Source: Lentilactobacillus parabuchneri DSM 5707 = NBRC 107865 (GTDB lineage: Bacteria > Bacillota > Bacilli > Lactobacillales > Lactobacillaceae). Taken from it: a DNA stretch of 52,843 nt. Every line of letters begins with the position of its first letter. Position 1 is the stretch's first letter. Under the pieces are notes generated by a model. The model was not told where the DNA came from, searched no databases, and worked only from the letters and a program-made list of their open reading frames with translations. Location: contig NZ_AZGK01000013.1 of NCBI RefSeq assembly GCF_001435315.1, positions 222 through 53,064 of the forward strand, in the 5' to 3' direction. The position numbers were made by a program, and so were the translations under genes. Positions 23,159-26,339 of the stretch are shown here, piece by piece.

Positions 23159-24148
23159 CTACCCGACCTCATGGGGGCTCTTTTCACCATTCAAAATCGT
23201 GACCACATCATTTAACGCAATTTCAATCATGTTTTGAACCGCTACTTCAGTATAAAAGCCAATGTGTGGGGTGACGTTAACGTTTGGCATTGCCAGTAAC
23301 TTCTTTAAGCTGTCGTTATCAATTTCTTGGCCGGTCAAATCCTGACCCACAATGGTATTTTCACCTTCAAATGTATCAATAGCTGCAGCTGCAATCTCTT
23401 TATTTTCAAGCGCAGCAACCAACGCCGGAGTATCGACAACCGGTCCCCGTGAGGCATTGATGAAAATCGCTGACGACTTCATTTCTTTTAAAACGGCCGC
23501 ATTAATCATGTGCTGGGTTTCATCGGTCAACGGCGTGTGCATGGTAACAATGTCTGCGGTTTTGAAAACTGTTTCGTGGTCCACGTAGGTCAACGTGTCG
23601 TTTAACTCTGGTCGATGAATCGGATCCGCCGCAATTACAGTGGCACCGAGTGCTCGGAAGATTCGGGCAACCGCGCTGCCGATTTTGCCGGCGCCAATAA
23701 TGCCAACCGTTAAGGTGTGAATTTCCCGAGCTTCAACGCCTTTCCAACTGAAGTCGCCATGTTTTTCACGTTCGCCGACTTCGCCGATGTGACGCAGAAG
23801 CCCCATGACGTCAGCCAAAACAAGCTCACTGACTGATCGTGGTGAATAAGCCGGCACGTTGGTCACCACCAAGTCGTTTTTCTTGGCTTGGTCAAAATCA
23901 ATGATTTCATAGCCGGTAATCCGCAACGTAATCTGCTTGATACCAAATGAATGGAGCTTTTCATAAATTGCTGGGTCGGCGACAGGCCCGTGTTGCTGGA
24001 TGACAATGCCATCGTATCCCTTGGCAAGGTCAACGGTTTCTGCGTTCAGCGGTACTGAATTGGTATCGACTTGAATGCCATTTTTTTCAACCCAGGCATC
24101 AAGTGGGGTTTGTTCGTCTGGTCGAACGTTATACATTAATATTTTCAA
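23159..24148 (-). CDS. D-2-hydroxyacid dehydrogenase (D-HicDH/D-LDH type, 329 aa)
   Basis: The enzyme reduces 2-keto acids to D-2-hydroxy acids with NADH. The Rossmann motif GIIGAGKIGSAVA (about residues 148-160), the catalytic Arg in FINASRGPVVD, the acidic TFEGEN region and the catalytic His in NVTPHIGFYTE are all present. Length is normal. The start is TTG at 24148, encoding the conserved MKILMYNVRPDE start, with AAAGGGAG upstream inside the end of the previous gene. It is co-transcribed with the aminotransferase 17 bases upstream, so its substrates are probably keto acids from aromatic or branched amino acids. D-lactate formation cannot be excluded. Confidence 0.88.
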   Translation of the reverse strand: MKILMYNVRPDEQTPLDAWVEKNGIQVDTNSVPLNAETVDLAKGYDGIVIQQHGPVADPAIYEKLHSFGIKQITLRITGYEIIDFDQAKKNDLVVTNVPAYSPRSVSELVLADVMGLLRHIGEVGEREKHGDFSWKGVEAREIHTLTVGIIGAGKIGSAVARIFRALGATVIAADPIHRPELNDTLTYVDHETVFKTADIVTMHTPLTDETQHMINAAVLKEMKSSAIFINASRGPVVDTPALVAALENKEIAAAAIDTFEGENTIVGQDLTGQEIDNDSLKKLLAMPNVNVTPHIGFYTEVAVQNMIEIALNDVVTILNGEKSPHEVG

Positions 24149-24165: not shown

Positions 24166-25344
24166 TTATTTGACTGACTTTTGATCAACGTATGTTTGAA
24201 TGCGGCTGACAGCTGTTTGGATGGTGTCTTCACTAGCTGCGTAACTGATTCGAACGTAGCCTTCACCACCCGGCAGGAAGTATGAGCCCGGAATCAACGC
24301 CACTTTGGCTTCCTTAGCCAAGTCGTAACAGAATTCTTCACTATTTTGGTTCAAGCCGTCAGGAATCTTGGCAAAGACATAGAAGGCGCCATTTGGATTC
24401 GGGCAGCTAAAGCCGGCTTTTTCCAGCCCTGCTACCAACAAGTCGCGGCGTTTCATGTATTCTTCCTTCATTGGTAACGCATCGTCCATGCCATTCTTGA
24501 AGGCTTCTTCGGCTGCGGCTTGGGCGTTGGTCGTTAACGAGGTGATGGTAAACTCGCTGACCTTGGCCACCTCGTTGATAATATCTTCAGGCCCACAAAT
24601 CATGCCGACTCTCCAGCCAGTCATCGCGTGAGACTTGGAAACCCCGTTCATGACAAGGGTTTGTTCCGGCAGAATGGTCCCCATCGAAACGTGGGCGCCG
24701 TCGTAGGTTAATTCGCTGTAAATTTCATCGCTCAAACAAATAATGTCGTGCTTGGAAATGACGTCTGCCAATTTTTGGAGGTCATCTTTGTGGTAGGTCA
24801 CACCAGTTGGGTTGTTAGGGAAGTTCAGGATAACTGCCTTAACAGTATCCTTGTTAGCTTCAATGGCAGCCGACAATTTTTCGGGTGATAACACAAAACC
24901 GTTATCTGATGTGTCGACAAAAATCGGTTTGGCGCCAGCTAGCATCAGAATTGGGACGTATAGTGGGAAAATCGGTGTTGGCACGATGACCGTGTCACCG
25001 GGATTAATCATCGCGGTTAAAGCCGAGTAGATCGCACCAGTCGCACCTTCTGTCATGATCACCTGGGTGGCAGGATCGTAATTCAAGCCGTACTTGGTGT
25101 TCAAGAAATGAGCGGCCGCTTTGCGTAACCCATCCGTTCCCCGTGAATTCGTGTAGTGGCTTTCATTGTCTTCAATCGCATTAATTGCGGCCTGCTTCAC
25201 GTGCTCCGGGGTGTTGAAGTCCGGCTCGCCCAGCGTTAATTTAACAATGTCTGGAATCGCTGAAATCTTCTGGTTGAAAGTTAAAATTGCTGCTGGGGTT
25301 AACGCTGCCACCCGTTTGTTCATTTTATCTGATAATTTGCTCAT
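24166..25344 (-). CDS. Class I PLP aminotransferase, probably aromatic (392 aa)
   Basis: The fold-type I features are present: the substrate loop YTNSRGTDGLR, NFPNNPTGV, LSDEIYSELTYDG, and the PLP Lys in SKSHAMTGWRVG, with the final Arg in GYVRISYA. The family includes AraT and PatA of lactic acid bacteria. The leader peptide upstream is rich in Tyr, Phe and Trp codons, which points to an aromatic aminotransferase. Its product keto acids would be reduced by the downstream D-hydroxyacid dehydrogenase, for example to phenyllactate-type acids. AGGAGG precedes the ATG and directly follows the attenuator T tract. Confidence 0.9.
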   Translation of the reverse strand: MSKLSDKMNKRVAALTPAAILTFNQKISAIPDIVKLTLGEPDFNTPEHVKQAAINAIEDNESHYTNSRGTDGLRKAAAHFLNTKYGLNYDPATQVIMTEGATGAIYSALTAMINPGDTVIVPTPIFPLYVPILMLAGAKPIFVDTSDNGFVLSPEKLSAAIEANKDTVKAVILNFPNNPTGVTYHKDDLQKLADVISKHDIICLSDEIYSELTYDGAHVSMGTILPEQTLVMNGVSKSHAMTGWRVGMICGPEDIINEVAKVSEFTITSLTTNAQAAAEEAFKNGMDDALPMKEEYMKRRDLLVAGLEKAGFSCPNPNGAFYVFAKIPDGLNQNSEEFCYDLAKEAKVALIPGSYFLPGGEGYVRISYAASEDTIQTAVSRIQTYVDQKSVK

Positions 25345-25356
25345 ACTGTTTTCCTC

Positions 25357-25492
25357 CTAAAAATAGGGTCCTCAAAGTCAAGGGACTGACTGTGAGGACC
25401 CACCATTGGTATTATCCCGCACAGTCAATTGCAGTGATCTGTGCGGCCTTTAATTTGCATTACGAAATGCTTTTGGCTTATCCACAGATCAC
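25357..25492 (-). promoter_or_regulatory. Transcription attenuator with competing hairpins
   Basis: On the minus-strand RNA four alternatives are visible. Region 1 (25483-25492, overlapping the leader stop codon) and region 2 (25434-25443) are a perfect 10-bp inverted repeat. Region 2 also pairs with region 3 (25439-25446 with 25417-25424, 8 bp). Region 3 pairs with region 4 (25420-25426 with 25388-25394, 7 bp). The terminator is GGGTCCTCA/TGAGGACCC (25393-25401 with 25366-25374), followed by TATTTTT. Stalling on the aromatic codons would free region 1, give 1:2 and 3:4, and favour read-through. The 3:4 helix overlaps the terminator arm by only two bases, so its antiterminating effect needs proof. 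Confidence 0.75.
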
Positions 25493-25554
25493 ACTCGGAA
25501 AAACCAAAAGTAATATCGACAACTATTCATTTGGATGTTTAAATTACCGCTCAT
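25489..25554 (-). CDS. Aromatic leader peptide (21 aa)
   Basis: The peptide is MSGNLNIQMNSC followed by RYYFWFFRV, then TGA. Six consecutive aromatic codons (Tyr-Tyr-Phe-Trp-Phe-Phe) stand near its end. AAGGAG lies 9 bases before the ATG, and a promoter lies 32 bases upstream. The stop codon overlaps the first arm of the attenuator. Such a composition is very unlikely by chance and matches the design of leader peptides in amino acid attenuation. Confidence 0.85.
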   Translation of the reverse strand: MSGNLNIQMNSCRYYFWFFRV

Positions 25555-25585
25555 AATTAAAAACTCCTTAGAATATGTTAAACAC

Positions 25586-25614
25586 ATGATAACGTTTTTA
25601 ATCTTGTGAATCAA
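25586..25614 (-). promoter_or_regulatory. Promoter of the aromatic leader and aminotransferase operon
   Basis: TTGATT, a 17-base spacer and TATCAT lie on the minus strand, with transcription starting at about 25580. A weak catabolite-repression-like sequence (two mismatches) overlaps the -10 at 25587-25600. Confidence 0.7.
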
Positions 25615-25625
25615 GGGCTATTTTG

Positions 25626-26339
25626 TCATGGCTTGATTCCCAGGTGAAAAGCTGCAGCGCCAAAAGTAAAGGTACGGTAGTGGACGTCAGTCAGGCCGGC
25701 ATCTTGAAACATCTCCACTAATTTTCCGGCAGACACGAATTCTGCGGTAGTTCGCTGCAGGTAATGGTATTGCTGGTACTTGTTAACGGTCAGCTTTGCC
25801 ATAATCGGCACCAGGTTAAAATAAGCCTGCCAGCCCAACTTGATGATCGGATTCGTGGGCTTGGACGTTTCCAGGCAGGCCACTTGACCCCGAGCGTGGA
25901 CAACCCGGCTCATTTCATGCAGGACGCGGTCGGCATCGGGCACGTTTCTCAAGCCAAAGCCAATCGTGGCAACATCAAAATAATTATCGGCATACGGCAG
26001 ATTCATTGCATCCCCCTTCACCAACGTCACCCGATCCGAAAGACCGGCCGCCCGAACTTTTTGATCGGCAATTTTGAGCATTTCCTCACTAAAATCAAGC
26101 CCGACAACCTGACCGGATGGCCCAACTGCCTTGGCAAGGGCGATCGTCCAGTCCCCCGTTCCACAACAGACGTCAATCGCAAAGCTGCCGGGACGGACAT
26201 TGAGTTGTTTCATCACCAATTTTCGCCAGTGCTTGTGATTGCCCAAGCTGATCAGTGAATTCATTTCATCATAGTTGGCGGCGATTTGGTTAAATAAAGA
26301 TTCAACCTTTGCTTCCGGGGTTTTGTTTGTCAGACTCAT
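25626..26339 (-). CDS. menG: Demethylmenaquinone methyltransferase (237 aa)
   Basis: This SAM-dependent methyltransferase of the UbiE/MenG family adds the ring methyl of menaquinone. Motifs include FNQIAANYDEMNSLISLG at the N-terminus, the SAM site DVCCGTGDWT, GLDFSEEML, and the family stretch TIGFGLRNVPD. Length is normal. GGAGCAGG precedes the ATG. It is divergent from menA, the enzyme that supplies its substrate. Confidence 0.93.
   Translation of the reverse strand: MSLTNKTPEAKVESLFNQIAANYDEMNSLISLGNHKHWRKLVMKQLNVRPGSFAIDVCCGTGDWTIALAKAVGPSGQVVGLDFSEEMLKIADQKVRAAGLSDRVTLVKGDAMNLPYADNYFDVATIGFGLRNVPDADRVLHEMSRVVHARGQVACLETSKPTNPIIKLGWQAYFNLVPIMAKLTVNKYQQYHYLQRTTAEFVSAGKLVEMFQDAGLTDVHYRTFTFGAAAFHLGIKP

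Follow-up and report, generated by a model that had tools for sequence, protein, structure and literature searches.

An aromatic leader peptide before an aminotransferase operon of Lentilactobacillus parabuchneri and its likely role in transcription attenuation

Described leader peptides and the leader unit of L. parabuchneri

Leader-peptide attenuators are familiar from hisL and trpL of the enterobacteria. In these systems a short open reading frame (ORF) carries a run of codons for the pathway product, a relay of overlapping helices follows, an intrinsic terminator stands before the first gene, and ribosome stalling leads to the antiterminator. In trpL the control codons, rather than the stop codon, lie in arm 1. 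The lactic acid bacteria, in turn, are well known as users of T-boxes. A study by Panina and others in 2003 reportedly dealt with the regulation of aromatic amino acids in low-GC Gram-positive bacteria and may hold relevant predictions.

In 2010, leader-peptide attenuators were said to be unknown outside the Proteobacteria and Actinobacteria save for a new histidine case (PMC2965389). Histidine leader peptides of Firmicutes are regular attenuators, some of them replacing T-boxes (PMC2965389, PMC9413887); they resemble the present leader in being leader-peptide attenuators and differ in amino acid and lineage. The his genes of Lactobacillales are reported to have T-boxes, not leaders (PMC9413887), and T-boxes are treated in PMC2494555. 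The leucine-rich attenuator peptide of Staphylococcus aureus is reported to provide leader-peptide control of branched-chain amino acid synthesis (PMC5794164), and is thus a Gram-positive leader peptide as well, but of another genus and for other amino acids. The uORFC-13-1 motif before aroF in Acholeplasma is a putative leader ORF, predicted only (PMC8632094). It belongs to another low-GC lineage and resembles our leader in its Phe codon(s), its terminator and its place before a gene of the shikimate pathway; it differs in coming from Acholeplasma and environmental sequences, in having one or more Phe codons where our leader has a run of six aromatic codons, and in its target gene. We found no aromatic leader peptide described in lactobacilli in the titles and abstracts that open-access searches returned, in line with an earlier note on this DNA, whose author knew of none.

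The window is the whole stretch of 52,843 nucleotides that we analysed. The entire leader unit, including promoter-like site, ribosome binding site (RBS), ORF and terminator, spans 25614-25359 on the minus strand, the strand of all window features below. The aromatic leader before the aminotransferase operon is real: each of these parts, which the earlier note had placed before the aminotransferase and dehydrogenase genes, was located by sequence. The predicted promoter of the leader transcript, TTGATT-17-TATCAT (25586..25614), is sigma-70-like with 9 of 12 matches. Such a match is weak if taken alone because six sites of this kind were found in the scanned 2 kb against 2.4 expected; the promoter block is largely kept in the seven aligned sequences that extend to it. 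The RBS AAGGAG (25564..25569) is followed by a 21-codon ORF, MSGNLNIQMNSCRYYFWFFRV and its stop codon (25489..25554), which is conserved in relatives. Both lie near the 5' end of the transcript, whose start is predicted. The C-terminus of the peptide reads C R Y Y F W F F R V before the stop. The control codons TAT TAC TTT TGG TTT TTC (Tyr Tyr Phe Trp Phe Phe; 25498..25515), identified from the sequence and by pattern search, form a run of six that finishes two codons ahead of the stop.

About 90 nt past the leader stop lies the terminator, a strong hairpin, and its U run (25359..25363) directly precedes the aminotransferase RBS, AGGAGG (25353..25358). The terminator stem (25401-25366) is visible in the fold of the leader; the terminator scan did not return it because the scan rule requires a loop of 3-8 and one unbroken stem. 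For the 224-nt leader the folding energy is -72.7 kcal/mol, compared with -47.8 +/- 4.5 for shuffled sequences (z -5.6), and none of 200 shuffles was as good.

Behind the leader lies a gene for a class I/II pyridoxal-phosphate aminotransferase of 392 aa (24166..25344; Pfam PF00155). Its nearest NCBIfam is NF005588, below the cut-off of that family, and the nearest solved chain by sequence is 4my5_A, a 'putative amino acid aminotransferase'. It is 93-94% identical to its counterparts in L. sunkii, otakiensis, kefiri and parakefiri, a comparison possibly without the closest records. The gene for a D-2-hydroxyacid dehydrogenase of 329 aa (23159..24148; Pfam PF02826/PF00389) starts 17 nt behind the aminotransferase gene, and the nearest solved chain to its product is the D-lactate dehydrogenase 4xkj_A. 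Among the NCBIfam families shown, neither protein scored above a cut-off.

The leader shares with hisL and trpL, as outlined above, the short ORF with its codon run, the overlapping helix relay, the terminator before the first gene and the predicted passage from stalling to antiterminator. It differs in having three amino acids in one run and in the position of its control codons, which lie upstream of helix arm 1 (25492-25483), whereas the stop codon (25491-25489) lies inside that arm. The coordinates uphold the claim that the stop overlaps the first arm; the addition that this is as in classical attenuators is corrected for trpL, which has its control codons there instead. A further difference is arm b, which pairs with the codons from inside the loop of helix 1:2. 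The leader also matches no Rfam family. No covariance model of the Rfam leader families (Trp_leader, Phe_leader, His_leader and others) matched it at gathering score. The leader very probably works like hisL and trpL, without detectable kinship to the Rfam leader families.

T-boxes abound in this genome (47 matches to the T-box model RF00230, 11 of them over the cut-off), and the leader might be taken for a T-box or another ligand-binding riboswitch. The same model, which works on the genome as a whole, had no match at the leader and none on contig C5; no Rfam family reached its gathering score over the leader, nothing relevant appeared up to an E value of 1, and the one match returned was at chance level (mir-1910, scoring 17.6 bits where the gathering score is 70). 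We give a riboswitch next to no credence here. The only Rfam element in the window at gathering score is an ordinary PyrR binding site RNA, located elsewhere (RF00515, 41655-41761, minus strand, 54.3 bits against a gathering score of 54).

Competing helices and the predicted direction of control

We aligned 30 leaders of one sequence type (19 from Lentilactobacillus, three from genus g5, seven from g20 and one from another family); leaders too divergent to align were left out of the helix pairing counts. Arms a, 1 and 4 were defined by alignment and helix check, arm b by alignment, and arm 5 by fold and helix check. Arm a (25501..25510) lies inside the control codons and is the partner of arm b, AAGCCAAAAG (25470..25479), which is complementary to the Phe-Trp-Phe codons. 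Arm 1, GTGATCTGTG (25483..25492), contains the leader stop. Arm 2 (25434..25446) uses CCGCACAG (25446-25439) for helix 2:3 and CACAGATCAC (25443-25434) for helix 1:2. Arm 3, TGACTGTGCGGG (25416..25427), contributes CTGTGCGG (25424-25417) to 2:3 and its full length to 3:4. Arm 4, GGGTCCTCACAGTCA (25387..25401), and arm 5, TTGACTTTGAGGACCC (25366..25381), are the 5' and 3' strands of the terminator. Helices 1:2, 2:3, 3:4 and 4:5 exclude one another in turn, and the last of these is the intrinsic terminator before the first gene. The alternative helices and terminator proposed in the earlier note are thus present, and the arrangement is corrected to a five-arm relay plus a helix a:b made with the control codons.

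In helix 1:2 of the alignment, 96.0% of cells are paired, with 12 two-sided cells, all at one position, and this varying pair is unpaired in 7 of the 30 leaders. Helix 2:3 is paired in 100% of cells and has 12 two-sided cells at two positions, at one of which the pair is GC in 20 leaders, AU in six, GU in two, and CG and UA in one each. Helix 3:4 has 93.3% of cells paired and four two-sided cells, one pair being unpaired in 16 of 30 leaders; it exceeds shuffles weakly (56 of 500 as good by cells paired, 9 of 500 by covariation score). Helix a:b is paired in 99.6% of cells with no two-sided change. All of these counts are drawn from related sequences and do not represent independent events. Compensatory stem changes, named beforehand as a sign to look for, occur in helices 1:2 and 2:3.

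The arm sequences of leaders in other genera are quite different, yet the same helix order can be written by eye. Shuffle counts for such helices overstate significance because the segments were picked by eye. The g30 leader has weak helices 1:2 and 3:4 (12 and 15 of 300 shuffles as good), and a codon-complementary stretch was not seen in it by eye. We gave up the supposition of a fixed place for arm b between arms 1 and 2, as the codon-complementary stretch follows arm 3 in locus L050 and in both sister leaders of the L. parabuchneri genome described below.

We also searched for chains in which overlapping helices link the stop region with the terminator. With loosened settings (one mismatch and part of the loop allowed), chosen after the stricter result, the three-helix chain of the window scored above 200 of 200 dinucleotide shuffles, and each of the 12 natural leaders had a chain that outscored at least 99 of 100; the chain had three links in the eight leaders that we had labelled five-arm and five links in the four that we had labelled seven-arm. 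The stricter search, with uninterrupted stems in the terminator 5' strand, recovered a three-link chain in 5 of 12 leaders, the window included, and a five-link chain in none of four. An odd number of arms is suggested by these sequences as a rule for the leaders. Chains with an even number of links, listed if at most 20 of 200 shuffles scored as high, also beat most shuffles in 11 of 12 leaders. Shuffles as high, of 200, numbered 5 (window), 0 (L059), 8 (L132), 4 (L069), 0 (L052) and 15 (L166) for two-link chains; 0 (L026), 1 (L053), 0 (L059), 20 (L042), 0 (L050), 3 (L166) and 0 (L171) for four-link chains; and 0 (L042) and 0 (L050) for six-link chains. The arm count does not settle the polarity because even-link chains score well too.

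We consider it highly likely that the leader is a ribosome-mediated transcription attenuator that senses the charging of tRNA-Tyr, tRNA-Phe and tRNA-Trp and gives readthrough on starvation. When aromatic aminoacyl-tRNA is short, the ribosome would halt while one of the first four or five aromatic codons occupies its A site, cover arm a and leave arm 1 free, allowing 1:2 to form. Arm 3 would then be free, 3:4 would form before arm 5 is made, and RNA polymerase would read into the aminotransferase and dehydrogenase genes. With ample supply, the ribosome would reach the stop and cover arm 1, 2:3 would form, and the terminator 4:5 would end transcription near 25360.

We modelled this by masking the ribosome footprint codon by codon and folding the remaining RNA at equilibrium. 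With the RNA ended before arm 5, helix 3:4 had a probability above 0.5 in 30 of 30 leaders when the A site was at any of the first four aromatic codons (Y1, Y2, F3, W4), in 28 of 30 at F5 and in 15 of 30 at F6. Beyond the run, 3:4 exceeded 0.5 in only 7-8 of 30 leaders, and 2:3 did so in 22-23. If the footprint is displaced by 2 nt, the switch point changes by about one codon. For the window RNA ended before arm 4 (footprint +12), 1:2 reached 0.67-0.97 with the A site at Y1-W4, and 2:3 reached 0.99-1.00 from F6 onward; in the 30 leaders taken together at this stage, 1:2 exceeded 0.5 in only 7-15 with the A site at Y1-W4. The modelled starvation-on polarity follows from the arm order together with this ribosome-position model, and it agrees with the earlier expectation that starvation raises expression.

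The same attenuator could in principle act in the opposite direction and shut the operon down when aromatic amino acids are scarce, which would be apt for a catabolic, phenyllactate-making aminotransferase. Several observations point that way. Before arm 4 (footprint +12) and with the A site at Y1-W4, 2:3 exceeded 0.5 in 15-23 of the 30 leaders; with the last Phe codon in the A site, 2:3 exceeded 0.5 in 15 of 30; and the even-link chains are present in most leaders. Set against these are the formation of 3:4, in RNA that includes arm 4, in 30 of 30 leaders with the A site at Y1-W4, and the position of the sister leaders before biosynthetic operons, where a starvation-off switch would be perverse. 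We regard the opposite polarity as improbable.

Other folding results count against the preferred starvation-on mechanism. In the window RNA with arm 4 present, 3:4 stood at 0.77-1.00 at all ribosome positions, and at 0.77-0.99 past the run. In the full-length RNA the terminator is favoured at equilibrium, and 3:4 exceeded 0.5 in at most 1 of 30 leaders at any ribosome position; the switch must therefore be kinetic. Control through the order of RNA synthesis is accepted for trp attenuation. Without translation, the codon helix a:b may exclude 1:2, and here the model gave a mixed picture: with no ribosome, 2:3 exceeded 0.5 in 30 of 30 leaders before arm 4, and in RNA with arm 4 made, 3:4 did so in 18 of 30, including the window.

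Conservation and distribution of the YYFWFF leader

A close orthologue of the aminotransferase occurs in 19 of 24 Lentilactobacillus genomes at 69-100% identity; in one of these the matched stretch contains an in-frame stop. All 19 are preceded by the leader, with exact YYFWFF in 17, YLYFWFF in G013 and YLCFWFF in G233. The remaining five genomes lack an orthologue, and G380 has only a broken paralogue of 53% identity. Upstream of four paralogous aminotransferase loci (L002, L003, L091 and L099) we found no aromatic-run leader. In the variant leaders of G013 (L086) and G233 (L085) the stop has shifted, either past arm b or to where arm 1 ends, and these leaders are useful natural tests of leader geometry.

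The pattern YYFWFF was present in 53 of 397 Lactobacillaceae genomes, compared with 9 for the reversed control (our own count from the table). We inspected all 53 matches and accepted 45 as short ORFs placed like leaders; the other eight (L021, L022, L023, L041, L049, L051, L056 and L071) were dropped as not being leaders. By genus label, the 45 leaders comprise 17 in g1, two in g13, seven in g30, one in g33, four in g5, seven in g20 and seven in g18. Behind them lie an aminotransferase (39 leaders), a PTS_EIIC_2-like membrane protein (four; L064 called by Pfam, L068-L070 by eye), transketolase-aroE (one; L050, with transketolase and then shikimate dehydrogenase by Pfam) and a contig end (one; L063). 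The dehydrogenase follows the aminotransferase in 7 of 39 loci. Its place is taken by a membrane protein in L053-L055, L060, L066 and L067 (L053 by Pfam), and most of the remaining loci are cut off too early to tell.

An order-level search detected YYFWFF in 33 of 395 genomes, and 30 of these matches were examined as loci. The 23 loci outside the family (L130-L141, L145-L155) include one leader, L132, with an aminotransferase behind it. L146-L155, all of one genus (g43), were set aside as a common conserved stretch without the ATG-RBS leader. Across the 46 leaders (the 45 and L132), an ATG with an RBS-like motif lies 11-15 codons before YYFWFF in 46 of 46, a count that admits weak four-base forms of the motif, and a stop codon follows 1-7 codons past the run in 46 of 46. 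A Q-x-N-(S/T/N) motif a few codons before the run was seen by eye in g1, g5, g20, g30 and g33. The N-terminal half of the leader ORFs varies over much of its length, unlike this motif.

The aromatic codons sought upstream of orthologous genes are therefore kept in 19 of 19 cases, together with the structure, and among these 19 there is no case in which the ORF is lost while the terminator remains. The conserved ORF, its aromatic codons and the structure support the interpretation of the locus as an attenuator. They also bear on a simpler explanation, in which an ordinary terminator of the upstream gene happens to carry a chance ORF. A menG-like gene (demethylmenaquinone methyltransferase, 25626-26339) does end just upstream of the leader, but the promoter-like site lies between the two, competing helices are present, and ORF and codons are kept in the 19 orthologues and in 45 of 397 family genomes, with varied arm sequences. 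We judge this explanation highly improbable.

In one clade, repeat units of about 122 nt are inserted between the terminator and the aminotransferase RBS (L013, L014, L015 and L028, the same sites as L025, L031 and L037). The repeat has 65-80 matches in each of four genomes, occurs at least once in 12 of 24 and is found once in the L. parabuchneri genome. We considered it as a strong inverted repeat and rejected this; it forms a long imperfect hairpin, but at z -1.0 is no better than shuffles.

Sister leaders and the aromatic supply of the family

Judged by sequence, the L. parabuchneri genome is a carrier of at least three aromatic leaders. The second, MTKQPATQTAYYFDYAYFK with its stop codon and a terminator, precedes a chorismate mutase-aroC-aroA-tyrA operon (L158 on contig C9, upstream of L158:3640-3981, minus strand). 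A leader of this kind with a chorismate-mutase-like ORF behind it occurs in 9 of 24 genus genomes, the ORF being called by eye except in L. parabuchneri itself. The third, MIKINSKINRFYYYWYA with its stop codon and a terminator, precedes DAHP synthase-aroB (Pfam; L171/L179, C12:201487-201504, minus strand) and has counterparts in 11 of 24 genus genomes, one of them reading FYFYWY, again with the downstream ORF called by eye except in our own genome. The DAHP synthase leader has, behind arm 3, a stretch that could pair with its Tyr-Tyr-Trp codons by complementarity; no 1:2 helix was named in the by-eye helix assignment. Rfam searches of loci L158 and L159 detected no T-box, and a T-box match (C12:201684-201947, plus strand) lies near the DAHP synthase leader on the opposite strand.

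Could the leader act through its conserved peptide, either by nascent-chain arrest or as a small protein, and not through codon supply? The near-invariant order of YYFWFF and the recurrence of Q-x-N-(S/T/N) in many genera by eye would fit such a role. The sister leaders, however, have other aromatic orders in the same setting (YYFDYAYF and FYYYWY), the variants YLYFWFF and YLCFWFF exist, and the N-terminal half varies over much of its length. An acting peptide thus appears very unlikely to us, and control by codon supply is preferred.

The sister leaders also inform the role of the operon. The genome encodes prephenate dehydratase and prephenate dehydrogenase, the latter in the chorismate mutase-aroC-aroA-tyrA operon (Pfam); a leader was sought at its pheA and not found. 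The codon run of the YYFWFF leader is conserved and encodes the amino acids to which the operon is probably linked, a link that comes from the sister leaders and from the presence of pheA and tyrA. Our preferred reading of the aminotransferase is as the enzyme of the final step in Phe/Tyr synthesis, or as one of keto acid salvage, under control of the same type as the two shikimate-pathway operons. Readthrough on starvation would suit either, and the biosynthetic or salvage role proposed earlier is favoured by the two prephenate enzymes and by the two sister leaders before shikimate-pathway operons.

The FYYYW(F/Y) pattern of the third leader was found in 47 of 397 genomes, compared with about 36 for the reversed control (our own reading of the table). 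Its 51 places include 26 that we judged to be leaders, a judgement resting on context because the bare pattern is not enriched over the reversed control. Behind these 26 lie DAHP synthase (10), transketolase (12) and aroE (two), with no gene identified in two (L212, L215). FYYYWF before transketolase occurs in other genera (L206-L209, L213, L216-L222; all 12 called by sequence motif, three Pfam-tested), as does FYYYWF before aroE (L225 and L226; one of two Pfam-tested).

We lean, by a modest margin, toward a wider reading in which the Lactobacillaceae would run much of their aromatic supply through an attenuator regulon beside T-boxes, with a shared odd-arm design and a codon-complementary element. 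Its YYFWFF members would be the aminotransferase, the PTS_EIIC_2-like transporter and transketolase-aroE; further members would be FYYYW(F/Y) before DAHP synthase-aroB, transketolase and aroE, and YYFDYAYF before chorismate mutase-aroC-aroA-tyrA. If this is true, five or seven arms from stop to terminator would mean that stalling always gives readthrough, and the topology would have been kept while arm sequences, arm number and target genes changed. The PTS_EIIC_2 protein found by the leader (L064, L068-L070) or by the aminotransferase (L053-L055, L060) may, judging by this gene context, carry an aromatic amino or keto acid; under the regulon reading this membrane protein would move such a compound and not sugar. 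In the open-access literature searched, one paper mentions PF13303.

If food lactobacilli hold a conserved and repeatedly re-targeted set of aromatic leaders, these would form a natural series for studying how such switches evolve. They would tell which aminotransferase, dehydrogenase and transporter serve aromatic supply, and perhaps the formation of phenyllactate, and they would offer ready-made aromatic amino acid sensors for food bacteria.
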